35,838 bases of DNA, taken from Candidatus Gemmiger stercorigallinarum. Its GTDB lineage: Bacteria; Bacillota; Clostridia; Oscillospirales; Ruminococcaceae. Location: contig DWWX01000033.1 of NCBI GenBank assembly GCA_019119495.1, positions 1 through 35,838 on the forward strand. Direction: 5' to 3'. This document shows, piece by piece, positions 5,940-20,421 of this stretch. Under the pieces are notes generated by a model. The model ran no database searches, had not been told where the DNA came from, and saw only the letters and a program-made list of their open reading frames with translations. Numbering within the stretch: position 1 is the first letter of the stretch; each line of letters opens with the position of its first letter. Made by a program: the position numbers and the translations under genes.

Positions 5940-7301
5940 ATGTCCGATACCGCGATCCAGACCTTGAAGAACATGCTCGCCCATCTGGACGACGCCAAAA
6001 AGTACCAGAGCCTGCGGGACGTGATGGAAACGCTGAACGCCCCCGACCTGGCCGCCGTGTTTGAGGACCTGCCCCAGGAGAAAATGCCGGTTTTGTTCCG
6101 GCTGATGCCCAAGGACCTGGCCGCCGAGGTGTTTGCCGAGCTGACGGCCGACACCCAGGAGGCGCTGATCCAGGGGCTTTCCGACCGGGAGCTGAAACTG
6201 GTCATTGACGAGCTGTTTGTGGACGATGCCACCGACCTGGTGGAGGAGATGCCCGCCAGCGTGGTCAAGCGCATCCTGGCCCAGGCGTCGCCCGACACCC
6301 GCCAGATGATCAACGAGCTGCTGAAATACCCGGAGGATTCCGCCGGCGGCGTCATGACCACCGAGTTCATGGAGCTGCGCCCGGACATGACCGTCAGCCA
6401 GGCAATGGACGCCATCCGCGAAAACGGCGTGGACAAAGAGACCATCAACAACTGTTATGTCACCAATGCCGACCGGACGCTGGCGGGCGTTGTCTCGCTG
6501 CGGACGCTGGTTTTGGAAAAGGACCCGTCCCGCCCCATCGCGGACCGGATGGACACCAACGTGGTCAGCGTCACCACCGCCACCGACCGGGAGGAGACCA
6601 GCCAGCTGTTTGAAAAATACGGCTTTTTGGCCATCCCCGTGGTGGACAACGAAAAACGCCTGGTGGGCATCGTCACGGTGGATGACGCGCTGACCATTTT
6701 GCAGGACGAGGTCAACGAGGACATTGCCAAGATGAACGCCATGGCCCCCACCGAGAAGCCCTATTTCAAGGCAAGCCTGTGGGAGCTGTACAAGAGCCGT
6801 GCGCCCTGGCTGCTGTTTTTGATGCTCAGCGCCACCTTCTCCAGCCTGGTCATCCGCAGCTACGAGGATGCCCTGGCCGCCGTGACCGCGCTGACCGCCT
6901 ACATCCCCATGCTGACCGACACCGGCGGCAACGCGGGCAGCCAGACCACCTCCACCATCATCCGCGGCATGGCCACCGGCGACATCGCGCCCCGCGATAT
7001 CCTGAAAGTGCTGTGGAAAGAACTGCGCGTCTCGCTTTTGTGCGGCCTGACGCTGGCGGTGTGCAATTTTGCCAAGCTGCTGTGGTTTGACGGCGTGGGC
7101 GCCGGCGTGGCGCTGGCCGTCAGCCTGACGCTGATCTGCACCGTGCTGCTCAGCCAGCTGATCGGCGGCGTGCTGCCGGTGGCGGCCCGCAAGGTGGGCA
7201 TCGACCCGGCGGTGATGGCCTCGCCGCTGATCACCACCATCGTGGATACCACCACGCTGCTGATCTACTTCAATTTTGCCCGCCTGGTGCTGCACCTGTA
7301 A
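5940..7301 (+). CDS. mgtE: Magnesium transporter MgtE
   Basis: A full-length 453-residue MgtE. The N-terminal superhelical domain covers about residues 1-130, with typical repeats such as LFRLMPKDLAAEVFAEL. Two CBS domains follow at about 135-260 (for example FLAIPVVDNEKRLVGIVTVD). Five membrane helices occupy about residues 280-453. The pore signature PMLTDTGGNAGSQ and the conserved DPAVMASPLITTIVD are present. MgtE is a homodimeric Mg2+-gated channel whose cytosolic domains close the pore when internal Mg2+ is high. AAGAAGGAGG precedes ATG 5940 at good distance. An attenuator-like leader lies upstream and a strong terminator downstream, so it is a single-gene unit. Confidence 0.97.
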   Translation: MSDTAIQTLKNMLAHLDDAKKYQSLRDVMETLNAPDLAAVFEDLPQEKMPVLFRLMPKDLAAEVFAELTADTQEALIQGLSDRELKLVIDELFVDDATDLVEEMPASVVKRILAQASPDTRQMINELLKYPEDSAGGVMTTEFMELRPDMTVSQAMDAIRENGVDKETINNCYVTNADRTLAGVVSLRTLVLEKDPSRPIADRMDTNVVSVTTATDREETSQLFEKYGFLAIPVVDNEKRLVGIVTVDDALTILQDEVNEDIAKMNAMAPTEKPYFKASLWELYKSRAPWLLFLMLSATFSSLVIRSYEDALAAVTALTAYIPMLTDTGGNAGSQTTSTIIRGMATGDIAPRDILKVLWKELRVSLLCGLTLAVCNFAKLLWFDGVGAGVALAVSLTLICTVLLSQLIGGVLPVAARKVGIDPAVMASPLITTIVDTTTLLIYFNFARLVLHL

Positions 7302-7322
7302 GCCGCCATCCCGCTGAAATAT

Positions 7323-7376
7323 GCGCCCCGCCCTCCCTCTGCCCGCAGGCAGCAGGGAAGGCGGGGCGCTGTTTTT
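7323..7376. terminator. Terminator between mgtE and the TetR gene
   Basis: GCGCCCCGCC and GGCGGGGCGC form the stem, followed on the plus strand by TGTTTTTGC. It ends mgtE. The stem is symmetrical and may also serve the convergent TetR gene, though T residues are clear only on the plus side. Confidence 0.85.
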
Positions 7377-7385
7377 GCGCATGGG

Positions 7386-7913
7386 TCACCCCATGGCGTC
7401 CGGGGCGGTCAGGCGGCTGATGGTCTCCACCACCAGCTGCTCGCCGTAGCGGCGGTTTTCCAGGTAGGTGTAGTAGCCCCCGTAGATGCGGAAGGTCAGC
7501 GAGATCTGGAACACCGGGTCCTGCTCCAGCTCCGGGTGCTGGCGGAAGATCATCTCCTTCAGCGCGGCGGCGATGCGGGTGATCAGCAGTCCGCTGCGGC
7601 TGCCGGAAAACAGCACGTTCAGCCGCTGCGACCGGGGCGCAAAGGCGGTGAACAGCTCCCGCGTGAACCGGGCGGTGTCCTGCAGGGCCGCCTCCGGGTG
7701 GGGGATGGCCGCCAGGATCTCCTGCACCGCCTGCTCCTCCAGCCGGTCGGCCAGGTCGTACACGTCCTTGTAGTGGGCGTAAAAGGTCGAGCGGTTGACC
7801 ATGGCTTTGTCGCACAGCTCCCGCACCGTGATCTTTTCCAGCGGTTTGCGGGCGCGCAGCGTCAGAAAAGCGTCCACAATGGCTTGTTTGCTTTTTTGGA
7901 TGCGCAGGTCCAT
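7386..7913 (-). CDS. TetR/AcrR-family transcriptional regulator
   Basis: A 175-residue regulator. The N-terminal 55 residues form the TetR DNA-binding domain, with KQAIVDAFLTL followed by the helix-turn-helix ITVRELCDKAMVNRSTFYAH and the typical YKDVYDLADRLE. The C-terminal helical domain has no recognised ligand signature; it resembles the TetR group with a C-terminal Y/F-rich GGYYTYLE helix. ATG 7913 is preceded by AAGGAGC. It is divergent from glgB with 216 bases between them, so it may control itself and possibly glgB, but the ligand and targets are unknown. Confidence 0.9.
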   Translation of the reverse strand: MDLRIQKSKQAIVDAFLTLRARKPLEKITVRELCDKAMVNRSTFYAHYKDVYDLADRLEEQAVQEILAAIPHPEAALQDTARFTRELFTAFAPRSQRLNVLFSGSRSGLLITRIAAALKEMIFRQHPELEQDPVFQISLTFRIYGGYYTYLENRRYGEQLVVETISRLTAPDAMG

Positions 7914-10063: not shown

Positions 10064-10663
10064 TCACTTGGGGCCGTGGCCGTTTTCGACCTGGCTGGTG
10101 CCCCGTTCCATCAGGTAGGTGGCGGTCAGGTCGGCAATGTGCAGCTTGACGGCCAGCGGATAGCTGTTGTAGGCGTCGCTGACGGCATGGCTGCCGCCCC
10201 GCACCGCGTCGTCAAAGCCGCCCATATGCCAGCGGATGGCAATGGCCTCGGCGGTTTTCAGCCGCATAAAATGCTCGATCAGGTAGACGCTTTTCTCGCC
10301 GTGGCCGTAGGGCAGCTGGTCGGCCACCTGGTAAAAGGGGACCTTCTCCCACTGGCCGGTCTCGTCGTTTTTGACGTTGCGGGTGCCCACCTTGTAAAAG
10401 TTCGCCTTGCACAGGTCGTGCAGCAGGCCGCAGATGGCGTAGCTCTCGGCGTTTTCGCCCTCGGTGAAAAAATGCTGCATCATGGCCTGGTAGACATTGA
10501 TGCTGTGCATCACCAGCCCGCACTGGCAGGCGCCATGGTACCGCGTCGAGGCCGGCGCGGTAAAAAAGTCGGTGCTTTCCAGCCATTTCAGCAGGCGGTC
10601 GGCGCCGGGGCGGGTGATGTTGGCGTTGTAAAGCTCGATAAACTGCTTGCGATAGTCTTCCAT
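10064..10663 (-). CDS. HD-domain hydrolase
   Basis: A 199-residue protein with an HD-type metal-dependent phosphohydrolase fold. The metal-binding order is seen as His in VMHSIN, the HD doublet in GLLHDLCK, further histidines in PYGHGEK and IRWHMGG, and a late Asp in IADLTATYL. Family members cleave phosphates from nucleotides or similar compounds; the substrate here is unknown. Its ATG (10663-10661) overlaps the stop of the YdbC-like gene (10665-10663) in an ATGA arrangement, so the two are translationally coupled. No terminator was seen immediately downstream on its own strand. Confidence 0.8.
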   Translation of the reverse strand: MEDYRKQFIELYNANITRPGADRLLKWLESTDFFTAPASTRYHGACQCGLVMHSINVYQAMMQHFFTEGENAESYAICGLLHDLCKANFYKVGTRNVKNDETGQWEKVPFYQVADQLPYGHGEKSVYLIEHFMRLKTAEAIAIRWHMGGFDDAVRGGSHAVSDAYNSYPLAVKLHIADLTATYLMERGTSQVENGHGPK

Positions 10664-10884
10664 CACAGCTCCAGTTCGTTCAGGATGTCCTTCAGCACGG
10701 CCATCTCGTCGTGGGAAAGGCTGATGCCCTTGCTCATCTTGCTGCCGTCGGGGGACCAGTCGCGGATGTCGTACTTGGGCTCGTGGTCGTTCCAGCTGAT
10801 CATGTTCAGCTGGCGCTCCCAGCCGCGGGCGTTGGTGGAGAGCACAGCAATGCGCTCGGTGATCTCGTATTTGAATTCTGCCAT
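10663..10884 (-). CDS. YdbC-like small protein with PC4-type fold
   Basis: A 73-residue protein starting MAEFKYEITERIAVLS, with W-N-D-H-E-PKYDIRDWSPDG and a C-terminal helix (HDEMAVLKDILNEL). This is the pattern of the YdbC/PC4 single-stranded nucleic-acid-binding family, widespread in Firmicutes. It probably binds ssDNA or RNA; a specific process is not known. AGAAGGAA precedes ATG 10884. The coupled HD hydrolase downstream suggests a joint nucleic-acid or nucleotide role, which is inference. Confidence 0.82.
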   Translation of the reverse strand: MAEFKYEITERIAVLSTNARGWERQLNMISWNDHEPKYDIRDWSPDGSKMSKGISLSHDEMAVLKDILNELEL

Positions 10885-11019
10885 GGGGGATTCCTTCTTT
10901 CGCAGGAAATTTCACTGTACGTCCGCCCGTCGGGGCGGCGCATCGGGAACATCATAGCGGATTTGCCGCAAAAATGCAAGGGGAAAGCGCCGGCGCGCAC
11001 CGGGGCAAAGGCCGGGCGG

Positions 11020-11724
11020 TCACCGGCCGCTTTGCCCGCCGCTCTCCGGCGGGCGGCGCAGCGGCGGGGTGTCCAGCTGGCCGGGACCGGGGGGATACTC
11101 GCCCTGCAGGCGGGCTTCGGCGCGGCTCAGGCGGGCTTCCAGGCTGGCGATGCGCTGCTCGAAAATGTCGGGGATGTCCTGCTGGTCCAGGTCGTCGGCA
11201 GGGCAGACCTTTTTGTTGTTGATGCGCACGATCTCGGCGGGCACGCCCACCGCGGTGGCGTTGGCGGGCAGGTTTTTCAGCACCACGCTGCCCGCGCCCA
11301 CCCGCACGTTGTCGCCGATGTACACCGGGCCCAGCACCTTGGCCCCCGCGCCGATCAGCACGTTGTCGCCCAGGGTGGGGTGGCGCTTGCCCGTCTCCTT
11401 GCCGGTGCCGCCCAGCGTGACGCCGTGGTAGATGGTGCAGTTGTCGCCGATCTCGGTGGTCTCGCCGAACACGATGCCCATGCCGTGGTCAATAAACAGC
11501 TTGCGGCCGATCTTGGCGCCGGGGTGGATCTCGATGCCGGTCAGGTGGCGGGACAGCTGGCTGATCAGCCGCGCCACAAAAAACCACTTGTGCCGGTACA
11601 AAAAATGTGCCAGCTTGTGCGTGACCAGCACATGAAAGCCGGGGTACAGGATGATGACCTCCAGCACGTTGCGCGCCGCAGGGTCCTTGTCCCGGATATT
11701 TTTGGCGTCCTCCCACAGGCCCAT
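11020..11724 (-). CDS. cysE: Serine O-acetyltransferase
   Basis: A 234-residue CysE that acetylates L-serine with acetyl-CoA for cysteine synthesis. The N-terminal helical region (LWEDAKNIRDKDPAARN) precedes a left-handed beta-helix built from hexapeptide repeats (IEIHPGAKIGRKLFIDHGMG and GDNVLIGAGAKVLGPVYIG). The signature IDHGMGIVFGETTEIGDNC and the catalytic-loop GVTLGGTGK are present. A charged C-terminal tail of about 45 residues (ASLEARLSRAEARLQGEYPP) extends beyond the usual end and looks coiled and disordered. ATG 11724 is preceded by GGAGGTG; an upstream ATG lacks this. Cysteine synthase (cysK) is not adjacent. Confidence 0.95.
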   Translation of the reverse strand: MGLWEDAKNIRDKDPAARNVLEVIILYPGFHVLVTHKLAHFLYRHKWFFVARLISQLSRHLTGIEIHPGAKIGRKLFIDHGMGIVFGETTEIGDNCTIYHGVTLGGTGKETGKRHPTLGDNVLIGAGAKVLGPVYIGDNVRVGAGSVVLKNLPANATAVGVPAEIVRINNKKVCPADDLDQQDIPDIFEQRIASLEARLSRAEARLQGEYPPGPGQLDTPPLRRPPESGGQSGR

Positions 11725-11862
11725 TCGCCCACCTCCATGTTGCGTCCTGCCGCCATGCAAAATCATACAGATATACACGGTGTTTGCTTTTCTAGCATAC
11801 CACGTTTTGCCGGGGTTGTACAGCGGCCGGGCCGGAAAAAGGGCGGCCGGGCGGCGCAGAAC

Positions 11863-11886
11863 GCAAAAATGCCCTGCCGGCAGGGC
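11863..11886 (-). terminator. Terminator of the PepSY lipoprotein gene
   Basis: Perfect 16-base palindrome GCCCTGCCGGCAGGGC followed on the minus strand by ATTTTTGC, 36 bases after the stop codon. Confidence 0.82.
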
Positions 11887-11921
11887 GGTGCGCGGCAGGG
11901 CAGGGAAAAAGCGGGGGAAAC

Positions 11922-12791
11922 TCAGTCGTCGATCTCAAAGTGGAGGATGCTGCCGCTGGAGGCGTCCACCGTGCATTCGTACTCGGTGCCGCCGACACGC
12001 CATTCCAGCTCGTACTCCAGGCGGCCGTCGTCCTCGTCCAGATCGATCTTCAGCCGGGTAACGTCGGCCTCGGCCACGCCGGCGTGGGCAAAGGCGGCGG
12101 CCTTGGCATCGTCGGCCGAGATGGTGCTGCCGCTGCCGGCAGAAGCCTGGTGATACTCGGCGTCGTAGTCGTAGTGCAGCACCTCGCCGGTCACGGCGTC
12201 GATCTCGTAGTCATACTCGCTGCTGCCGGTCCAGAACTCCACCTCGTACACGGTGCGGCCGTCGTCCCGGTCCAGCTCGGTATGCACAAACTGCACGCTG
12301 CTGTTGTCGGCCAGGCCGGCGTGGGCCAGCGCAGCCAGGCGGGCGGCGTCCTCGCCGATCCATTCGCCGGAGGCGCTGTCGCTCTGGCTTGCGGCGGGGG
12401 TGTAATTCTCGGCGTCCTGGTCCATTGACAGGATCTCGCCGGACACGGCGTCGATCTCGTAGTCGTACTCGGCGGTGGCGGTCCAGAACTCGATGTCATA
12501 GACGGCGCGGCCGTCGTCGTAGTCCAGCCGGCCGTACATGCCGCTGACGCTGTCGGCGGTCAGGCCGGCGTCGGTCAGGGCGATGCTCTCGGCGTCGGCC
12601 TGGGCGATGTACTCGTCCGAACCGGCGCTGCCGGCAATGCCGGCCGAGACGGTGCTGGAGGGGGATCCCGCCGGCGCCACGTCGGAGGCAGCGGCGGCGG
12701 AGGAACTGTTCATGGCGGCGGCGGTGCAGCCGGTCATCAGGCCAAGGGCCAGGGTCAGTGCCAGGGGGGCGAACAAGGTCGTCTTTTTCAT
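11922..12791 (-). CDS. Lipoprotein with three PepSY-like repeats
   Basis: 289 residues. A lipoprotein signal peptide (MKKTTLFAPLALTLALGLM, then TGC) gives a diacylglyceryl Cys at residue 22, followed by a Ser/Ala-rich linker. Three PepSY-type units follow, each with a helix (for example DAARLAALAHAGL) and a strand pattern (DDGRxxYxxEFWTxxxEYDYEIDAxxGEIL). The third unit (VGGTEYECTVDASSGSIL) is most diverged. PepSY domains are known in secreted protease inhibitors and sensor proteins; here they would face the outside of the membrane. ATG 12791 follows GGAAG. It is followed by a palindromic terminator and preceded by a possible response-regulator site. Confidence 0.88.
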   Translation of the reverse strand: MKKTTLFAPLALTLALGLMTGCTAAAMNSSSAAAASDVAPAGSPSSTVSAGIAGSAGSDEYIAQADAESIALTDAGLTADSVSGMYGRLDYDDGRAVYDIEFWTATAEYDYEIDAVSGEILSMDQDAENYTPAASQSDSASGEWIGEDAARLAALAHAGLADNSSVQFVHTELDRDDGRTVYEVEFWTGSSEYDYEIDAVTGEVLHYDYDAEYHQASAGSGSTISADDAKAAAFAHAGVAEADVTRLKIDLDEDDGRLEYELEWRVGGTEYECTVDASSGSILHFEIDD

Positions 12792-13102
12792 GGGGATCTT
12801 CCTTTCTTCTGGATGCGCCGGGCCGGGCGGCGGAGGGGAGCTGCGCTCCGGCCTTTTTGGCGCTGCGGTTTTGTTTGTTGTGACTGTATTGTATCCTGTC
12901 AAGATTAAAGCCGCATTAAGAAAGAAAAAATCTTTTATTTTTTGTGGGGCGGGGAGTCCGGACGAAAAAAGGCGGCAGTAAGCCCCCGCAGACTGCCGAA
13001 AAAGTTAAAATCCGCCGCCGTTTGCGCGGCAGCCTGCCTGCAAAACGCGCCTGCGGGCGCAGTGCGCCGCCAACGGCGGCACAAAAGGCAGGGGCGGGCG
13101 GC
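12792..13102. promoter_or_regulatory. Intergenic region upstream of the PepSY gene
   Basis: No gene is seen here. On the minus strand two TTAAT boxes (plus-strand 12904-12908 and 12915-12919) are spaced by 11 bases, upstream of a -10-like TACAAT (12893-12888). This spacing is typical of OmpR/PhoP-type response-regulator sites. A TTGACA also occurs at 12902-12897 but has no good -10. The part from 12945 to 13102 is GC-rich with a small perfect hairpin GCCGCC-AAC-GGCGGC (13066-13080), without a T run, near the end of the RpiR gene. Confidence 0.3.
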
Positions 13103-13894
13103 TCAGCCCGGATAGAGTTTGGCGACCTCGTACAGCAGCAGCTCCAGGAACAGGTAGACGATGATCTGGTCCTCAAAAAAGTTGTCGCCTGCGTCATGGC
13201 TGATCCAGGGCAGGGCGAACACCAGGTCGGCATACTCGGCGGCAGGCTGTTTGGGGTTCATGCAGATCAGGATGATCTTACAGCCCCGCTCGCGCAGGGT
13301 GCGCAGCGTGTTCTCCCGCCCGCGAATACCGCGGCCCATGGTGCTGATCAGGATGCACAGATCCCCCTGGGCCAGGATCTCGGCGTCGTCGCCCATGACG
13401 ACCCAGTCGTCGGTGACCTGGTTGAAGATGCCCAGCCGCCCCAGCCGGTTGGAAAGCTGCTTGGCGGACTGAAAGGTGCGGTTGAACCCCCAGATGGAGA
13501 TGTGCCGCGCGGTGCAGATGCTCTGTGCGGCGCGGCGCAGGTCATCGGTGTTTACACAGTCCGGGATGCGGCGCAGGTAGCGCACATAGGTCTCGATGGT
13601 GTTGTGCATTGGGTCGGGGGCGGCGGGGCCTTCGCCGCTTTCTTCGCCGCGCTCGGCCCCCTGGGCCAGCAGATACCGGTGCATCGAATATTTGAATTCG
13701 GAATAGCCCTTGTAGCCCAGCTTCTGGCACAGCCGCACCAGCGCCGCGTTGGAGGAACGGGCCGCCTTGGAAATGTCGGATATGCCCAGCCCGTCCAGCA
13801 CGCAGCGCGGATGGGACAAAATATAGTCGGCCAGCCGCTGCTCGGCCTTGGTCAAGGTGTCGTAGTTCCGCTTTAACATGGTGACAGGGTCCAT
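13103..13894 (-). CDS. RpiR/MurR-family transcriptional regulator
   Basis: 263 residues. The N-terminal HTH domain (about 1-77) has the RpiR pattern TLTKAEQRLADYIL and ISKAARSSNAALVRLCQKLG followed by YKGYSEFKYSMHRY. The C-terminal half is a SIS sugar-phosphate-binding domain (about 105-245), with HISIWGFNRTFQSAKQLSNR and ILISTMGRGIRGRENT. Regulators of this family sense phosphosugars. ATG 13894 is preceded by CAGGAGG. It is divergent from the PTS/sulfatase operon, and palindromes related to TGGAAA-N2-TTTCCA lie between the two, so it probably controls that operon with a phosphorylated, possibly sulfated, sugar as effector. Confidence 0.92.
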   Translation of the reverse strand: MDPVTMLKRNYDTLTKAEQRLADYILSHPRCVLDGLGISDISKAARSSNAALVRLCQKLGYKGYSEFKYSMHRYLLAQGAERGEESGEGPAAPDPMHNTIETYVRYLRRIPDCVNTDDLRRAAQSICTARHISIWGFNRTFQSAKQLSNRLGRLGIFNQVTDDWVVMGDDAEILAQGDLCILISTMGRGIRGRENTLRTLRERGCKIILICMNPKQPAAEYADLVFALPWISHDAGDNFFEDQIIVYLFLELLLYEVAKLYPG

Positions 13895-14329
13895 GGCAGC
13901 CTCCTGACAGTAGGGTGTGGGGAATGATGCTGGAAAAGTTTCCAAACCGTTGCTTCTATCATACCGCATCCTGCCGCAAAAAGCAACAGACGGGGCAGGG
14001 GGGCCTTGGTTGACCGGAAAAAGAAACACTTTCAAATGGACGATAAAGCGGTGGAATTGGCAGATTCGACAAAGGAAGCACTGTCGATTTGAACATATTT
14101 CCAAAAATGAAAAAACTTCCAAAATTCTATTGAAAATTCTTCCAACCAAGGCTATACTGAGGGTGTTGAAGGCCGGATGTGTAGCGCGCGCACGCCGGCC
14201 GGGAAGGTGCCTGCCCGCCGCACCGGCAGGGCAGGCCACACCGTTTGAGACGGCGGAGCGCCGGGGGAAACGCATGCCGGCAAGGGCTGTGTTTCCGCCC
14301 CGCGGCGCCCGTTCAGGAGGAATGTTATT
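13895..14329. promoter_or_regulatory. Divergent control region of rpiR and the PTS/sulfatase operon
   Basis: Besides the promoter at 14130-14158, this region holds a perfect palindrome TGGAAA-AG-TTTCCA (13931-13944) just before rpiR. Related half-sites (TTTCCAAA, CTTCCAAAA, TTGAAAA, CTTCCAA) are packed at about 14097-14145, overlapping the PTS promoter. These are the best candidates for the RpiR operator. The stretch 14170-14310 is a GC-rich leader with no clear structure or gene. Confidence 0.5.
14130..14158 (+). promoter_or_regulatory. Promoter of the PTS/sulfatase operon
   Basis: TTGAAA (14130-14135), 17-base spacer, TATACT (14153-14158). TTCCAA/TTGAAAA half-sites overlap it, which suits repression by the divergent RpiR protein. 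The predicted leader before the EIIC start is about 165 bases. Confidence 0.7.
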
Positions 14330-15628
14330 ATGATGGAAAAATTCCAGGCGGCCATGGAAAAAAGCCTGATCCCGGTCGCCAACAAGCTCTCGGCCAGCAA
14401 GATCCTGCGCGCCATCAGCCGCGGTTTTTCGGCGCTTTTGCCCATCATCATGGTGGGCGCCATCGCCTCGCTTCTGTCGGGGCTGAACATTGAAGCCTAC
14501 CAGACCTTTATCACCAACATCGGCCTGAAACCGGTCATCTCGATGGTCTCCACCTACACCACCAACATGATCGCCCTGTATGCGGTGTTCAGCATCGGCA
14601 AGGCCATGGCGGACCAGCTGGAATGCAAGGACCAGTCCACCCTGGCCGGCCTGATCACGCTGCTGATGTTCCTGCTGGTCATCCCCACCGGCGTGGGCGA
14701 GGGCGACACGGCGGTGTCGGCCGCCATCTCCACCAGCTATTTCGGCGCGGCGGGCCTGTTCACCGCCATGCTGCTGGGCATCGTGGTGCCGCTGATCTAT
14801 AATCTGTTCATCAAATACCACATCGTCATCAAAATGCCGGAGGGCGTGCCGCCCCAGATCGCCAACGGTTTCTCGGCCATCATCCCGGCTGCGGCTCTCA
14901 CCGTGATCTTTGTCGTTGTCCGCCAGCTCTGCGCCATGACCAGTTTCGGCACGCTGAACGACCTGGTCTACGGCATTCTGCGCGCCCCGCTCAGCACCCT
15001 GACCGAAAGCCCCGTCACCTTTGTCATTCTGCTGCTGCTGTGCAATATTCTGTGGTTCTTTGGCATCCACGGCGGCATGGTCACCATGTCTTTCCTGAGC
15101 ATGCTGTACATGGCTCCCGCCATGGAAAACCTGGAAGCCCTGGCCGCCGGCCAGGAACTGCCCAACCTGCTGACCAATACCTGGTGGTTCACCTTCGCCC
15201 AGCTGGGCGGCTCCGGCGGCATCATCGGTCTGGCCGTCTGCATGCTGCTCTTTGCCAAAAGCCAGCGTTATAAGGCGCTGAGCAAGATCGCCATCCTGCC
15301 GGCCCTGTGCTCCATCTCGGAACCGCTGGTCTTTGGCATCCCGCTGGTGCTCAACGTCATCATGCTGATCCCCATGATCCTCAGCCCGCTGTGCTGCTTC
15401 CTCAGCTCTTATATCCTGACAAGCATCGGCGTACTGCCCTACCTCAACGGTATCCAGCTGTCCACCGGCACGCCGGTGGTGCTGGCCGGCTTCCTGGCCG
15501 GCGGCGTGCCCGCGGCCATCTGGCAGGTGGTGCTGGTGGCGCTGCAGTTTGCGATCTACTTCCCCTTCTTCCGCATTGTGGACAAGCAGGCACTGGAGGC
15601 AGAGCAGGCCGCAGCCGCCGGCAAGTAA
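14330..15628 (+). CDS. PTS lactose/cellobiose-family EIIC permease
   Basis: 432 residues with about ten hydrophobic segments. This is a separate EIIC of the Lac/Cel PTS family (CelB type), the membrane channel that imports a disaccharide during phosphorylation. Family marks include FFGIHGGMV near residue 243 and SISEPLVFGIPLVLN near residue 328 (the Glu of the NxEP-like motif binds sugar). EIIA and EIIB are encoded downstream as separate proteins, with a sulfatase gene between. CAGGAGG precedes ATG 14330; ATG 14333 is also possible. The sulfatase neighbour implies a sulfated substrate; the family generally takes beta-linked disaccharides. Confidence 0.94.
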   Translation: MMEKFQAAMEKSLIPVANKLSASKILRAISRGFSALLPIIMVGAIASLLSGLNIEAYQTFITNIGLKPVISMVSTYTTNMIALYAVFSIGKAMADQLECKDQSTLAGLITLLMFLLVIPTGVGEGDTAVSAAISTSYFGAAGLFTAMLLGIVVPLIYNLFIKYHIVIKMPEGVPPQIANGFSAIIPAAALTVIFVVVRQLCAMTSFGTLNDLVYGILRAPLSTLTESPVTFVILLLLCNILWFFGIHGGMVTMSFLSMLYMAPAMENLEALAAGQELPNLLTNTWWFTFAQLGGSGGIIGLAVCMLLFAKSQRYKALSKIAILPALCSISEPLVFGIPLVLNVIMLIPMILSPLCCFLSSYILTSIGVLPYLNGIQLSTGTPVVLAGFLAGGVPAAIWQVVLVALQFAIYFPFFRIVDKQALEAEQAAAAGK

Positions 15629-15706
15629 CACACCCGGAGCAACACCCGCCCCGCCCGCCGCGGTGCACTGCGGCGTCGCGGGAATTTTTGGAAGGACGTG
15701 ACCGTT

Positions 15707-17197
15707 TTGAGCAACCGACCCAACATCGTCTGGTTCGTGGCGGACCAGATGCGGCATGACGCCATGGGCCATGCCGGCAACCCTGCCGCCTGCACCCCCA
15801 ACCTGGACGCCCTGGCGGCCGAGGGCGTCAGCTTTACCAATGCCTACTGCCAGAACCCGGTCTGCGTGCCCAGCCGGTGCAGCTTTCTGACCGGGTGGTA
15901 TCCCCACACCATGGGCCACCGCACCATGCACTATATGATGCGGAAAGAGGACCCCAATCTGCTGAAAACCATGAAGCAGAACGGTTACGAGGTGGTGTGG
16001 ATCGGCCGCAACGACTTTATCCCCGGCAGCTGGGCCAAGACCGACTACTGCGACCGCTTTTACGACGGCACCGATCTGACCGAAAAAAGCGCCGTGGAGG
16101 GCGGCGGGATGCACATCGGCCTGGGGACGGACGTCAGGCCGGAGATCGCCCCGGTAATGCAGGGCGCGGACCTGAAATATTCCTTCTACCTGGGCCGCTT
16201 CCCGGAACATTCGCTGGACCGCAGCTTTGACTGGAACTGCGTCAACGCGGCGCTGAACTACCTGGACGAGCGCGCCCGGCAGCCCGGCGGCAAGCCGTTT
16301 TTCCTTTACTGCACCCTCAGCTTTCCCCATCCGCCCTATGGCTGCGAGGAACCCTGGTACTCGCTTATCGACCGCAGCAAGCTGCCGCCCCGCCGGCCCG
16401 ACCTGGAAACGCTTTCCGGCAAGGCGGGCATCCTGCAGGGCATCCGCGCCAGGCAGGGGCTGCAAAACTGGACCGAGGCCCAGTACGACGAGGTCCGGGC
16501 CGTTTACCTGGGCATGACCGCCCGGTTCGACCACCAGCTGGGCCTGGTGCTGGACAAGCTGAAACAGACCGGCGTCTACGACGACACCAGCGTGTTTGTG
16601 TTCAGCGACCACGGCGACCTGACCGGCGACTACGGCATTACCGAAAAGTGCCAGAACAGCTTTGAGGACCCGCTGACCAATGTGCCGCTGGTGGTCAAGC
16701 CGGCGGCCGGCACGCCGCTGCGTCCGGGCGTCAACGACGCCCTGGTGCAGCTGAACGACCTGCCCGCCACCGTATGGGAGATGACCGGCGTGCAGCCGGA
16801 TTATATCCAGTTCGGCCAGTCGCTGTGCGGCACCATCGCCGACGGCGGGCCGCACCGGGACGCCGTCTTTTGCGAGGGCGGCCGCCTGCGCGGTGAGGTG
16901 CAGGCCATGGAGCCGGAGCACGGCCCCCAGTCGCCCTACTGGCCGCGCATCAGCACCCAGCACGAGAGCGACGCCGCCCACACCAAGGGCTGCATGATCC
17001 GCATGGGCAGCCTGAAGTACATCCTGCGCCTGTACGAGGACGACCAGCTTTACGACCTGGAAAAGGACCCGATGGAACTGGAAAACCGCATCGGCGATCC
17101 GGCCTATGCCGACGCCCTGCGCACCATGAAGGAGCGGATGCTGCGCTTTTATATGGAGACCGGCGACTTTGTGCCCACCAGGATGGACAAACGCTGA
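15707..17197 (+). CDS. Cytoplasmic formylglycine-dependent sulfatase
   Basis: About 496 residues of the type I sulfatase / alkaline phosphatase fold. The activation signature Cys-x-Pro-Ser-Arg is present (CVPSRCSFLTGWYPHTMGH); Cys53 should be converted to formylglycine. Other metal and sulfate ligands appear in NIVWFVADQ near the start, in VFSDHGDLTGDYG and in the conserved TKGCMIRMGSLKYIL. There is no signal peptide, so it acts in the cytoplasm, as fits a PTS-imported substrate. TTG 15707 is the likely start (GGAAGGA ten bases before; MSNRPNIVW suits the family); GTG 15698 is too close to that site. No maturase (anSME) gene lies in the window. A phosphodiesterase-like role cannot be excluded. 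Confidence 0.9.
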   Translation: MSNRPNIVWFVADQMRHDAMGHAGNPAACTPNLDALAAEGVSFTNAYCQNPVCVPSRCSFLTGWYPHTMGHRTMHYMMRKEDPNLLKTMKQNGYEVVWIGRNDFIPGSWAKTDYCDRFYDGTDLTEKSAVEGGGMHIGLGTDVRPEIAPVMQGADLKYSFYLGRFPEHSLDRSFDWNCVNAALNYLDERARQPGGKPFFLYCTLSFPHPPYGCEEPWYSLIDRSKLPPRRPDLETLSGKAGILQGIRARQGLQNWTEAQYDEVRAVYLGMTARFDHQLGLVLDKLKQTGVYDDTSVFVFSDHGDLTGDYGITEKCQNSFEDPLTNVPLVVKPAAGTPLRPGVNDALVQLNDLPATVWEMTGVQPDYIQFGQSLCGTIADGGPHRDAVFCEGGRLRGEVQAMEPEHGPQSPYWPRISTQHESDAAHTKGCMIRMGSLKYILRLYEDDQLYDLEKDPMELENRIGDPAYADALRTMKERMLRFYMETGDFVPTRMDKR

Positions 17198-17222
17198 ATC
17201 TGAAAACAAGGAGGAAACTGCG

Positions 17223-17585
17223 ATGCAGCTGACACAGGACCAATACGACGAGATCGTGATGAACCTGGTGGTGGAGGGCGGCAACGCCCGCAGCCTGGCC
17301 ATGGAGGCCATCCAGGCCGCCAAAAAGGGCGACTTTGCCCAGGCCGACCAGCGCATGAAGGAGTGCGAGGAGGCGCTGGTGGAGGCCCACAACACCCAGA
17401 CGGAGATGATCCAGGCCGAGATCCGCGGCGACCATATCCCGGTGATGCTGCTGATGGTCCATGCCCAGGACCACCTGATGGACGCCATGGTGGTCAAGGA
17501 CCTGGCTGCCGAGATCATTGACCTGTACCGCGCCCGCGGTCAGGAAACCGCGGCCCTGCCCGGTGCGGAACCCCCGATAGGGTGA
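17223..17585 (+). CDS. PTS lactose/cellobiose-family EIIA
   Basis: 120 residues of the all-helical EIIA-Lac family. The phosphorylated histidine is His80 in MVHAQDHLM, with the metal-binding Asp83 of the trimer next to it. The N-terminal MNLVVEGGNARSLAMEAIQA and DFAQADQRMKECEEALVEAH are typical. It passes phosphate from HPr to the EIIB encoded next. ATG 17223 follows AAGGAGG, 25 bases after the sulfatase stop. Confidence 0.95.
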   Translation: MQLTQDQYDEIVMNLVVEGGNARSLAMEAIQAAKKGDFAQADQRMKECEEALVEAHNTQTEMIQAEIRGDHIPVMLLMVHAQDHLMDAMVVKDLAAEIIDLYRARGQETAALPGAEPPIG

Positions 17586-17636
17586 CTACGGATTGTATAA
17601 AAGTGACAAAATATAACAGATAAGGAGCATGTCGCC

Positions 17637-17936
17637 ATGAAAAACATTGTTTTGTTCTGTGCTGCCGGGATGTCCACCAGCCTGCTGGTGAGCAAGATGC
17701 AGGCTGCCGCCAGGGAGATGAACTTTGACTGCACCATCCAGGCCTACAGCCTGAATGACCTGAAAGAGAAGGGCGCCGACGCCGACTGCATCCTGCTGGG
17801 CCCCCAGGTGCGCTACCAGAAGGACAAGGTCGTTGTTGCTTACCCGGACAAGCCCATCGCCGTTATCGATATGACGCTGTACGGCATGATGAAAGGCAAA
17901 GAGGTGCTGGAGCAGGCCATCGCAATGATGCAGTAA
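17637..17936 (+). CDS. PTS lactose/cellobiose-family EIIB
   Basis: A 99-residue EIIB with phosphorylated Cys8 in VLFCAAGMSTSLLVSKM, the hallmark of the Cel/Chb EIIB family, and the downstream ILLGPQVRYQ. It takes phosphate from EIIA and gives it to the sugar at EIIC. AAGGAGC precedes ATG 17637. It is the last gene of the first transcription unit; a strong terminator follows at 17977-18023. Confidence 0.96.
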   Translation: MKNIVLFCAAGMSTSLLVSKMQAAAREMNFDCTIQAYSLNDLKEKGADADCILLGPQVRYQKDKVVVAYPDKPIAVIDMTLYGMMKGKEVLEQAIAMMQ

Positions 17937-17976
17937 GCGAAAGCAGCCAGCCGTCAGAACCTTTTCTGGCGGACAC

Positions 17977-18023
17977 GCCGGCCCCTTCCGCCCGCCCGGC
18001 GGGGGAGGGGGCCGGCCTTTTTT
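17977..18023 (+). terminator. Terminator after EIIB
   Basis: GCCGGCCCCTTCC pairs with the GGGGGAGGGGGCCGGC side and is followed by CTTTTTT. It separates the PTS/sulfatase unit from the GH1 unit, which has its own promoter. Confidence 0.85.
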
Positions 18024-18044
18024 GATGCGGCGGCCCCCGCGGTC

Positions 18045-18073
18045 TTGCAGTGGCAGGGCGAATGGTCTATACT
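18045..18073 (+). promoter_or_regulatory. Promoter of the GH1 / TauE unit
   Basis: TTGCAG (18045-18050), 17-base spacer, TATACT (18068-18073), 75 bases before the GH1 start. I did not see a clear copy of the TGGAAA/TTTCCA palindrome here. Confidence 0.7.
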
Positions 18074-18141
18074 ATAAATTAAAGCAAAGAAACAAATCGC
18101 AGCGGCTGCTGCACTGGCATCCCTGCCAGGCAAGGAGGTAA

Positions 18142-19587
<1,446 letters not shown>

Positions 19588-19626
19588 AAGCGGCGGAGAA
19601 TGTAAAAAGAAAAGGGGCGTTTTGGC

Positions 19627-20421
19627 ATGCAGCAATTTCTGTTTTTGGCGGTCAGCCTGCTGGCCTCGGTGGCGGGGGCCATCTGCGGCATCGGCGGCGG
19701 CGTTATCATCAAGCCGGTGCTGGACCTGTTCGGGCTGGCAAGCGTTTCGACCATCAGCTTCCTGTCCGGGTGCACGGTGCTTTCCATGAGTGCCTACTCG
19801 GTGGGCAAGGGGCTGATCTCCCGCGACAGCGCCGTGGACCTGAAAAGCGGTACCTACCTGGCGGTGGGCGCCGCGGTGGGCGGCGTCTGCGGGCAGCAGC
19901 TGTTTGCACTGGTGCGCGGCCTGTTTGAAAACCAGGACACCGTGGGCGCGGTGCAGGCGGCCTGCCTGTTTGTCATCACGCTGGGCACGCTGGTCTACAC
20001 CATCCGCAAGGCGAACATCCGCACCATCAGGGTGCAGGGCGCTGCGCCGGGGGTGCTGATCGGCCTGGCGCTGGGCGTTATGTCCAGCTTTTTGGGCATC
20101 GGCGGCGGCCCCATCAACCTGGTGGTGCTGGGGTATTTCTTCTCGATGGAGACCAAGACCGCCGCCCAGAACAGCCTGTACATCATCCTGTTCAGCCAGA
20201 TCACCAACCTGCTCACCACCATCGTGGCCGGCAACGTGCCGGAGTTCGAGGTGCTGACGCTGGTGTTGATGGTGGCGGGCGGCATCGGCGGCGGCATGAT
20301 CGGCCGCTTCTTCAGCCGCCGCATGGACAACCGCGCGGTGGACAAGCTGTTCATCGGGCTGATGGTGGTCATTATGGGCATCAGCGTCTGGAACACCGTC
20401 CGCTACAGCGGCCTGCTGTAA
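19627..20421 (+). CDS. TauE/SafE-family anion exporter
   Basis: 264 residues with about eight membrane segments. The two halves each carry the family's glycine-rich motif: GAICGIGGGVIIKPVLDLFG near residue 20 and MSSFLGIGGGPINLVVLG near residue 155. TauE/SafE proteins export sulfite, sulfoacetate and other organosulfur anions; several members are of unknown substrate. Its position 39 bases after the GH1 gene and behind a sulfatase suggests that it removes sulfate or a related anion released during substrate breakdown. That role is inference from context. The ATG at 19627 has only a weak purine-rich site upstream (AAAAGGGGCG). Confidence 0.88.
   Translation: MQQFLFLAVSLLASVAGAICGIGGGVIIKPVLDLFGLASVSTISFLSGCTVLSMSAYSVGKGLISRDSAVDLKSGTYLAVGAAVGGVCGQQLFALVRGLFENQDTVGAVQAACLFVITLGTLVYTIRKANIRTIRVQGAAPGVLIGLALGVMSSFLGIGGGPINLVVLGYFFSMETKTAAQNSLYIILFSQITNLLTTIVAGNVPEFEVLTLVLMVAGGIGGGMIGRFFSRRMDNRAVDKLFIGLMVVIMGISVWNTVRYSGLL

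Follow-up and report, generated by a model that had tools for sequence, protein, structure and literature searches.

A Lac-Family Phosphotransferase Operon with a Predicted Cytoplasmic Sulfatase in Candidatus Gemmiger stercorigallinarum: A Probable Pathway for a Sulfated Beta-Glycoside

Introduction

The well-studied sulfatases of gut Bacteroides act outside the cytoplasm and can feed neighbouring cells. Here, we analyse a 35,838-nucleotide contig of Candidatus Gemmiger stercorigallinarum (DWWX01000033.1 of assembly GCA_019119495.1, positions 1 to 35,838 of the forward strand; hereafter the window), in which a gene for a predicted cytoplasmic sulfatase, P0002, lies inside an operon for a Lac-family sugar phosphotransferase system (PTS), together with genes for a family 1 glycoside hydrolase (GH1) and a TauE/SafE membrane protein, and with a divergent gene for an RpiR-family regulator. 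If these genes form a PTS-coupled cytoplasmic route, the route would be a private one, as sugar and sulfate would be freed only inside the cell. The metagenome-assembled genome (MAG) that carries the window comprises 2.06 Mb in 44 contigs and is 86.6% complete.

A described counterpart is the SPH1922-SPH1930 island of Streptococcus pneumoniae, in which, as in the window, a Lac-type PTS, a sulfatase, TauE and a divergent sugar regulator occupy one locus (PMC3302838, PMC3283741). It was proposed to serve the uptake of a sulphated sugar, the removal of the group and its export through TauE (PMC3302838, in the part of the text considered), and a loss of fitness in mice was reported for it (PMC3283741, likewise). 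In the portions of these two papers that describe the island, it has a ROK/MarR regulator, two EIIC genes and a ComA-like gene, whereas the window has an RpiR regulator; its maturase is encoded in the island and no GH1 enzyme is named, whereas the window has a GH1 gene and no maturase in the locus. An earlier annotation of the window, made from the sequence alone (the first-pass annotation), had called intracellular desulfation of a PTS substrate with a dedicated exporter unusual. This holds only in part, since the pneumococcal PTS-sulfatase-maturase-TauE island was read in the same way in 2012 (PMC3302838, PMC3283741, in the parts considered), but the variant described here is new. Relative to the open-licence literature in PubMed Central (PMC), the new elements are GH1 and RpiR in the gene set, a sulfatase clade that spans four families, a form with two PTSs and two sulfatases, and an altered sulfatase pocket.

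Other systems share parts of this arrangement. Operons of the bgl/cel/chb type resemble the window in their Lac-family EIIC, EIIA and EIIB genes and in a BglA-like GH1 enzyme (2xhy) with a Ser/Lys/Tyr set. To our knowledge, such beta-glycoside PTS operons contain no sulfatase, maturase or TauE gene. Putative, uncharacterized glycosaminoglycan loci of gut Firmicutes contain a PTS or ABC importer, a glycoside hydrolase and regulators, with RpiR and a sulfatase appearing in a figure legend; the loci hold polysaccharide lyases (PL8/PL12), whereas none was seen in the window locus (PMC9067506, in the sections considered). Bifidobacterium breve UCC2003 is reported to use an intracellular sulfatase on a sulfated sugar, in its case GlcNAc-6-S; its sulfatase clusters are described without mention of a PTS or GH1 in the part of the paper used here (PMC7326374). 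The S1 sulfatases of Bacteroides have the fold and formylglycine site that P0002 has; they are described as periplasmic in the heparin pathway (PMC10154612, in the part considered). They are not coupled to a PTS, and the one aligned here with P0002 (7oz8) has a K-x-H motif. In one survey, in the portion of it consulted, Bacteroidetes and Akkermansia were the sole carriers of genes for mucin-desulfating GlcNAc-6-sulfatases within the set of genomes analysed (PMC5583593).

Results and Discussion

The Operon and Its Proposed Function

Open reading frames (ORFs) and Pfam/NCBIfam profiles confirmed the seven genes at 13103-20421 in the order first proposed for them (Table 1), and the CVPSR motif that had been noted lies at residues 56-60 of P0002. 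The starts of the rpiR and EIIA genes were corrected to 13894 and 17223, respectively. Translation of P0002 starts either at GTG 15698 or at TTG 15707, the latter being favoured by relatives.

The Lac-family PTS set is complete: EIIC matches PF02378 and TIGR00410 (280.6 bits, cut-off 236), EIIA matches PF02255 and EIIB matches PF02302, with Cys8 of its CAAGMSTS motif presumably being the phosphorylation site. A PTS enzyme I over the cut-off is encoded in the same genome. The best subfamily of the GH1 enzyme P0005 is PRK09589, 6-phospho-beta-glucosidase, although its 600 bits are below the cut-off of 624. Its identity as a 6-phospho-beta-galactosidase was rejected, as PRK13511 scored 253 bits compared with 600 for PRK09589. 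Ser433, Lys439 and Tyr441, previously picked out as a phosphate-binding set, were found as claimed and align with those of Escherichia coli BglA (2xhy); the enzyme also has TFNE (from residue 173) and VENG (from residue 376) motifs, whose glutamates we take to be the two catalytic residues.

The operon probably serves the catabolism of a sulfated beta-glycoside by PTS import, cytoplasmic desulfation and phospho-beta-glycoside cleavage, a reading to which we give a probability of about 0.6 on the basis of gene content and conservation. EIIABC would import a sulfated disaccharide or an aryl or alkyl beta-glycoside and phosphorylate O6 of its non-reducing hexose. Lac-family PTSs phosphorylate this O6, which therefore would not be the sulfated position; the sulfate would sit elsewhere, on another position of the phosphorylated hexose, or on the reducing sugar or aglycone. 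Cytoplasmic P0002, with Cys56 converted to formylglycine by an anaerobic maturase, would remove the sulfate before or after cleavage by GH1, which would split the 6-phospho-beta-glycoside and deliver hexose-6-phosphate to glycolysis. Through its SIS domain, RpiR would sense a phosphorylated intermediate, and it would control both promoters by way of TGGAAA-type operators. Export of the freed sulfur anion, for which TauE may be responsible, is the weakest step.

Table 1. Genes and candidate regulatory elements of the locus, with positions in the window.
Feature	Position	Strand	Basis
RpiR-family regulator P0007 (HTH_6 + SIS), divergent	13103..13894	-	PF01418 + SIS
TGGAAA-AG-TTTCCA perfect palindrome, candidate RpiR operator	13931..13944	.	
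Conserved promoter/operator block	14098..14158	+	TTTCCAAA, CTTCCAA, TTGAAA (-35), 17 nt, TATACT (-10), CTTCCAA
PTS EIIC P0001, lactose/cellobiose family	14330..15628	+	PF02378, TIGR00410
Formylglycine-type sulfatase P0002 (probable), C56-V-P-S-R60	15698..17197	+	PF00884
PTS EIIA P0003, Lac family	17223..17585	+	PF02255
PTS EIIB P0004, Lac family, Cys8 in CAAGMSTS	17637..17936	+	PF02302
GH1 P0005, 6-phospho-beta-glucosidase-like	18148..19587	+	PF00232, PRK09589; Ser433/Lys439/Tyr441
TauE/SafE (TSUP) membrane protein P0006	19627..20421	+	PF01925

The Sulfatase and a Lac-Type EIIC Remain Paired

A scan of GTDB species genomes with 8-residue patterns of P0002, which recovers close relatives only, returned nine loci (L018-L026). 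These include Faecalibacterium gallinarum JCM 17207 (L020), a deer-gut MAG (L021) and Clostridium paraputrificum (L024). In a maximum-likelihood tree of 22 sulfatases, P0002 and L018-L026 formed one clade of 10 rows with support of 100/100, whose members come from Oscillospiraceae, Lachnospiraceae, Clostridiaceae and Erysipelotrichaceae. The underlying alignment comprised 21 sulfatases, that of a Niallia taxi megaplasmid (L141) being added for the tree only; L014, which is cut by a contig end, L059-L066 from a genus search, and a Subdoligranulum sulfatase (L142) were left out.

A Lac-type EIIC gene adjoins the sulfatase gene in all ten clade rows, being directly upstream in the window and L018-L025 and converging in L026. 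Within the fetched regions, no Lac EIIC gene was found around any of the remaining 12 tree rows (nine sister rows, L141, and the distant L015 and L017). The conservation of the sulfatase in the locus, on which the first-pass annotation had made its reading depend, was thus borne out in each of the nine loci returned by the scan. The EIIC proteins beside the sulfatase are 66-87% identical to P0001 in L018-L023 and only 31-37% in L025 and L026. EIIA was found in L018-L022, and EIIB in L018-L023, with a more distant one in L026. A GH1 gene is present in the fetched locus of seven of the nine relatives, from adjacent up to ~5 kb away. A divergent RpiR relative occupies the same place in L018-L022 (50-68% identity) and L024 (34%); none was found in L025, which has a PRD/EII-type regulator identified by eye, or in L026, and the L023 region begins 198 bp before EIIC.

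Among 297 genomes of the family, no sulfatase more than 51% identical to P0002 was present except its own, and at E<=1e-70 EIIC was found in two, namely its own genome and one with a 33% relative, so that a close EIIC occurred once. The 35 genus genomes yielded two more close sulfatases, 86% and 84% identical, which are probably from the species of L018 and L019, plus six at 46-48%. An order-wide search at E<=1e-100 found the sulfatase in two of 394 genomes, the window's own and G008. The cassette is rare and patchy, and its EIIC and sulfatase stay together while other parts vary.

EIIC, EIIA, EIIB and GH1 alone would make up a complete pathway for cellobiose or aryl-glucosides, and the locus could be an ordinary beta-glucoside PTS operon with a sulfatase inserted for sulfur scavenging or for an unrelated substrate. 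We consider this decidedly improbable, as the sulfatase gene lies between those of EIIC and EIIA and is EIIC-adjacent in all ten clade members, even where EIIC identity falls to 31-37%. Moreover, within the family a close EIIC was found only in the window's own genome, where it occurs together with the sulfatase, although this is a single case.

Beyond the clade, the sister-clade sulfatases (L006-L013, L016) are 42-49% identical to P0002, and plasmid searches returned the Niallia taxi sulfatase (46% identical) and the Subdoligranulum one (44%). The sister-clade genes have ABC-, MFS-, ROK- and LacI-type neighbours. This neighbour scan is qualitative, as 50 of 92 ORFs were picked by eye, with antisense frames dropped, and the best 25 of 72 families were considered. 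Since relatives of the sulfatase occur with PTS, symporter-like, ABC and MFS genes, a general scheme in which importers of various kinds take up the substrate before it is desulfated would be reasonable but unproven.

Location and Maturation of the Sulfatase

P0002 has a PF00884 domain (139 bits) with C-x-P-S-R, as have S1 formylglycine sulfatases, but falls far short of the cut-offs of all NCBIfam sulfatase models among the matches listed. In its predicted model (pLDDT 85.7, pTM 0.91; residues 57-59 and 71-80 below 50), the first strand starts from residue 9, too early for a signal peptide to precede it; the earlier statement that the enzyme has none is upheld by this model rather than by a signal-peptide predictor. 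The first in-frame start codon is at the same place in the sulfatases of L021, L023, L024 and L025, and a secreted P0002 was rejected in view of the N-terminal strand together with these start positions. The other two sulfatase-domain proteins of the genome (L002, 647 aa; L003, 632 aa) have no Cys-x-Pro-x-Arg; therefore, P0002 is the sole formylglycine-type candidate in the assembled part.

Twelve other genomes that contain a P0002 homologue (nine from the clade, three from the sister clade) were searched for an anaerobic sulfatase-maturating enzyme (anSME), and every one of them encodes it. In 11 the match is over the profile cut-off; in the twelfth it reaches 323.9 bits and covers profile positions 1-331. 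Across the family, anSME is present at E<=1e-80 in 76 of 297 genomes, 69 of them over the cut-off. At this threshold, it occurs in 10 of 10 non-own sulfatase genomes of the family and in 66 of the 286 remaining genomes (Fisher p 8e-7, which is too small because genomes are treated as independent and their relatedness is ignored). In three of the nine relatives, the anSME gene is inside the sulfatase locus. In L020 and L021, it lies 3' of the RpiR gene in the same orientation and is the genome's only one over the cut-off, and in L024 the in-locus anSME (344.3 bits, cut-off 349.45) is accompanied by a second one, over the cut-off, elsewhere in the genome. In the L023 genome, an anSME gene adjoins a TauE gene. 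As the clade includes the cultured strain F. gallinarum JCM 17207 with a maturase in the locus, the question can be tested outside a pathogen.

TauE Is Linked to Genomes That Use Sulfatases

The TauE gene follows that of GH1 in L018 and L019, where the protein is 87-88% identical to P0006, and a fragment is present in L024; the Lac PTS, sulfatase and TauE share one locus in the window, L018 and L019. At E<=1e-20, a relative of TauE is encoded in six of the nine other clade genomes. Across the family, TauE was found at E<=1e-40 in 36 of 297 genomes, its own included, and anSME was present in 29 of 35 non-own TauE genomes compared with 47 of 261 others by hand count (Fisher p 3e-14, again too small for the reason given above). 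Regions of ~6 kb on each side of the 36 TauE genes contained anSME in seven cases (three genera, four cases from one) and a sulfatase-like gene alone in three, the low-scoring radical-SAM hit of L138 (113 bits) not being taken for anSME. A TauE dedicated to P0002-type sulfatases was rejected, as 26 of the 36 regions have neither a sulfatase nor a full maturase, with the qualification that 12 regions are shorter than 12.7 kb owing to contig ends and that the sulfatase profiles, which we built ourselves, may overlook sulfatases of other types. No common neighbour was seen in the nine regions that were inspected by eye. TauE is linked to sulfatase-using genomes as a loose part of the locus. Sulfatases release sulfate, and the substrates named for TauE proteins are sulfite and sulfonates. 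Export of the sulfur anion is the least supported step of the proposed pathway; P0006, a member of PF01925, may have this role.

Evidence That Weighs Against the Pathway, and the Nature of the Pocket

Several observations weigh against the pathway that we propose. EIIA was not found in the fetched loci L023-L026, and GH1 was not found in those of L023, where other genes are present instead, and L024. Because the loci were fetched via the sulfatase, they give no measure of how common such EIICs are where the sulfatase is absent. TauE was not found genome-wide at E<=1e-20 in L020, L022 and L026, and the copy of L025 has an internal stop, so that the dedicated exporter of the first-pass annotation has weak support. 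Neither anSME nor a formylglycine-generating enzyme (FGE) was found in the 86.6% complete MAG of the window, the best anSME match (L004, 44 bits, cut-off 349) being by its score another radical-SAM protein. The maturase that the first-pass annotation expected elsewhere in the genome was found in every other homologue genome searched and not in this one, for which the simplest reason would be the incompleteness of the MAG. For the pneumococcal island, an assay with 4-methylumbelliferyl sulfate detected no sulfatase activity, and in the media tried a mutant of the island did not differ from its parent in growth, as stated in the part of the paper considered (PMC3283741). Taken as a whole, the first-pass interpretation was partly supported.

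The pocket of P0002 also differs from that expected. Asp16, Cys56, Pro58, Ser59, Arg60, His211, Asp304, His305 and Lys317 are invariant in all 21 homologues. The solved sulfatases 4upi, 4upl, 7oz8 and 6pt4 show G-K-x-H, of which K-x-H aligns with positions 104-106 of P0002; K-x-H is presumably part of the S1 sulfate subsite. By sequence alignment only, all 21 homologues have R/K104-N105-D106 instead (R in 19, K in 2), including R-N-D in all nine sister-clade sulfatases, and the Niallia taxi enzyme has K-N-D with CTPSR. The sulfate subsite of S1 sulfatases was called invariant in a review (PMC10154612, in the part considered), which a working sulfatase without K-x-H, if confirmed, would correct. 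His74 and Arg75 are also invariant and are further pocket candidates, although they lie in the low-confidence stretch 71-80 of the model.

These features raise the question of whether P0002 could be a formylglycine-dependent phosphodiesterase, or an enzyme akin to phosphonate monoester hydrolases (PMHs), that takes a phosphodiester-linked group off the imported glycoside, with no sulfate involved. Like the PMHs 2vqr and 2w8s, P0002 lacks K-x-H, and in Foldseek searches with the P0002 model the PMHs 4uph, 2vqr and 2w8s tied with the sulfatases 6pt4, 4upi and 7oz8, without separation. PMHs also need formylglycine, so the link to a maturase is compatible with such an enzyme. Conversely, 2vqr and 2w8s have Y-T-T at the K-x-H position, from which R/K-N-D of P0002 differs, and its Arg or Lys keeps the positive charge. 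A profile search ranked 4upi, 4upl, 7oz8 and 6pt4 above the PMHs, although in a single-sequence search 2vqr came fourth, above 6pt4. In addition, TauE in the locus and the TauE-anSME link among genomes point to sulfur. A PMH-like function is quite unlikely in our judgement. As K-x-H is replaced and the best folds mix PMHs and sulfatases, the designation of P0002 as a sulfatase is probable but not proven. A more far-reaching proposal, which we make tentatively and consider doubtful, is that the clade represents a new subfamily of formylglycine enzymes whose sulfate pocket was rebuilt around R/K-N-D and His74-Arg75 to suit sugars that carry both a sulfate and the 6-phosphate added by a PTS, and that in Gemmiger relatives two different PTSs supply two different cytoplasmic sulfatases, which converge on one phospho-glycosidase.

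A Second PTS-Sulfatase Unit and the Possible Substrate

In L018 (10239-14451) and L019 (~10295-14422), a second PTS-sulfatase unit lies between EIIB and GH1, a place taken by unrelated genes in L020. It consists of a second divergent RpiR gene (31-32% match to P0007, plus Pfam), an EIIBC gene of the glucose/beta-glucoside type (PF00367 + PF02378) and a second sulfatase gene (PF00884; CMPAR), whose product has no leader by eye; the Pfam assignments are those of L018 only. Both loci thus have two PTS-sulfatase pairs ahead of one GH1-TauE pair.

With the pathway itself unchanged, its natural substrate could be a glycoside with a sulfated aglycone, phenolic or glucosinolate-like, and not a sulfated disaccharide of host or algal origin. 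The GH1 enzyme is closest to BglA-type phospho-beta-glucosidases, the E. coli genes bglA and ascB were implicated in the degradation of sinigrin (PMC6767122, in the part considered), and the names attached to L019-L021 suggest bird and deer guts as their source. The nearest solved match to P0002 by single sequence, 7oz8, would instead point to a host sugar, although it is only 24% identical; it is BT1918, an S1_46 enzyme that acts on 3S,6S-GlcNAc, as given in the part of the review considered (PMC10154612). The second sulfatase of L018 and L019 also suggests a more sulfated sugar. Such an aglycone seems unlikely to us.

Related loci contain other arrangements. In C. paraputrificum (L024, 9570-11698), the anSME gene is directly 3' of the sulfatase gene and is followed by fragments of a second sulfatase and TauE, apparently decayed. 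The Niallia taxi locus (L141, 844-17161) has both sulfatase types and FGE-like, ROK-like and two symporter-like genes, recognized by eye, with an EIIBC-GH1 pair ~3 kb beyond the second sulfatase; the feature table of this record is empty of annotation. In L021, a small ORF that is acetyltransferase-like by eye (7159-7701) lies between the sulfatase and EIIA genes; none was seen in the window.

Regulatory Elements and Neighbouring Frames

The rpiR-EIIC intergenic region contains a TTGAAA-17-TATACT promoter flanked by TTTCCAA half-sites, the conservation of which was judged from a 6-row alignment. The TGGAAAN2TTTCCA palindrome is perfect in the window, L019 and L022, at another alignment position in the last, and has one mismatch in L018, L020 and L021; no chance expectation was computed for it. 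Between the EIIC and sulfatase genes, a hairpin beats shuffled sequences in L018 (7903-8003, z -3.2), L019 (7893-8003, z -2.6) and L021 (5476-5622, z -5.3) and is not above shuffles in the window (15629-15700, z -0.67), L020 and L022. It may set the expression of EIIC against that of the downstream genes.

Downstream of rpiR, an ORF on the minus strand (11922-12902) encodes a product in which PepSY stretches occur three times and whose start resembles that of a lipoprotein, with no evident operon link. The rpiR frame itself is open on the minus strand over 13103-17518, that is, for 1471 codons, and runs antisense through the EIIC and sulfatase genes; this is probably an effect of high GC content, and it can mislead gene callers.

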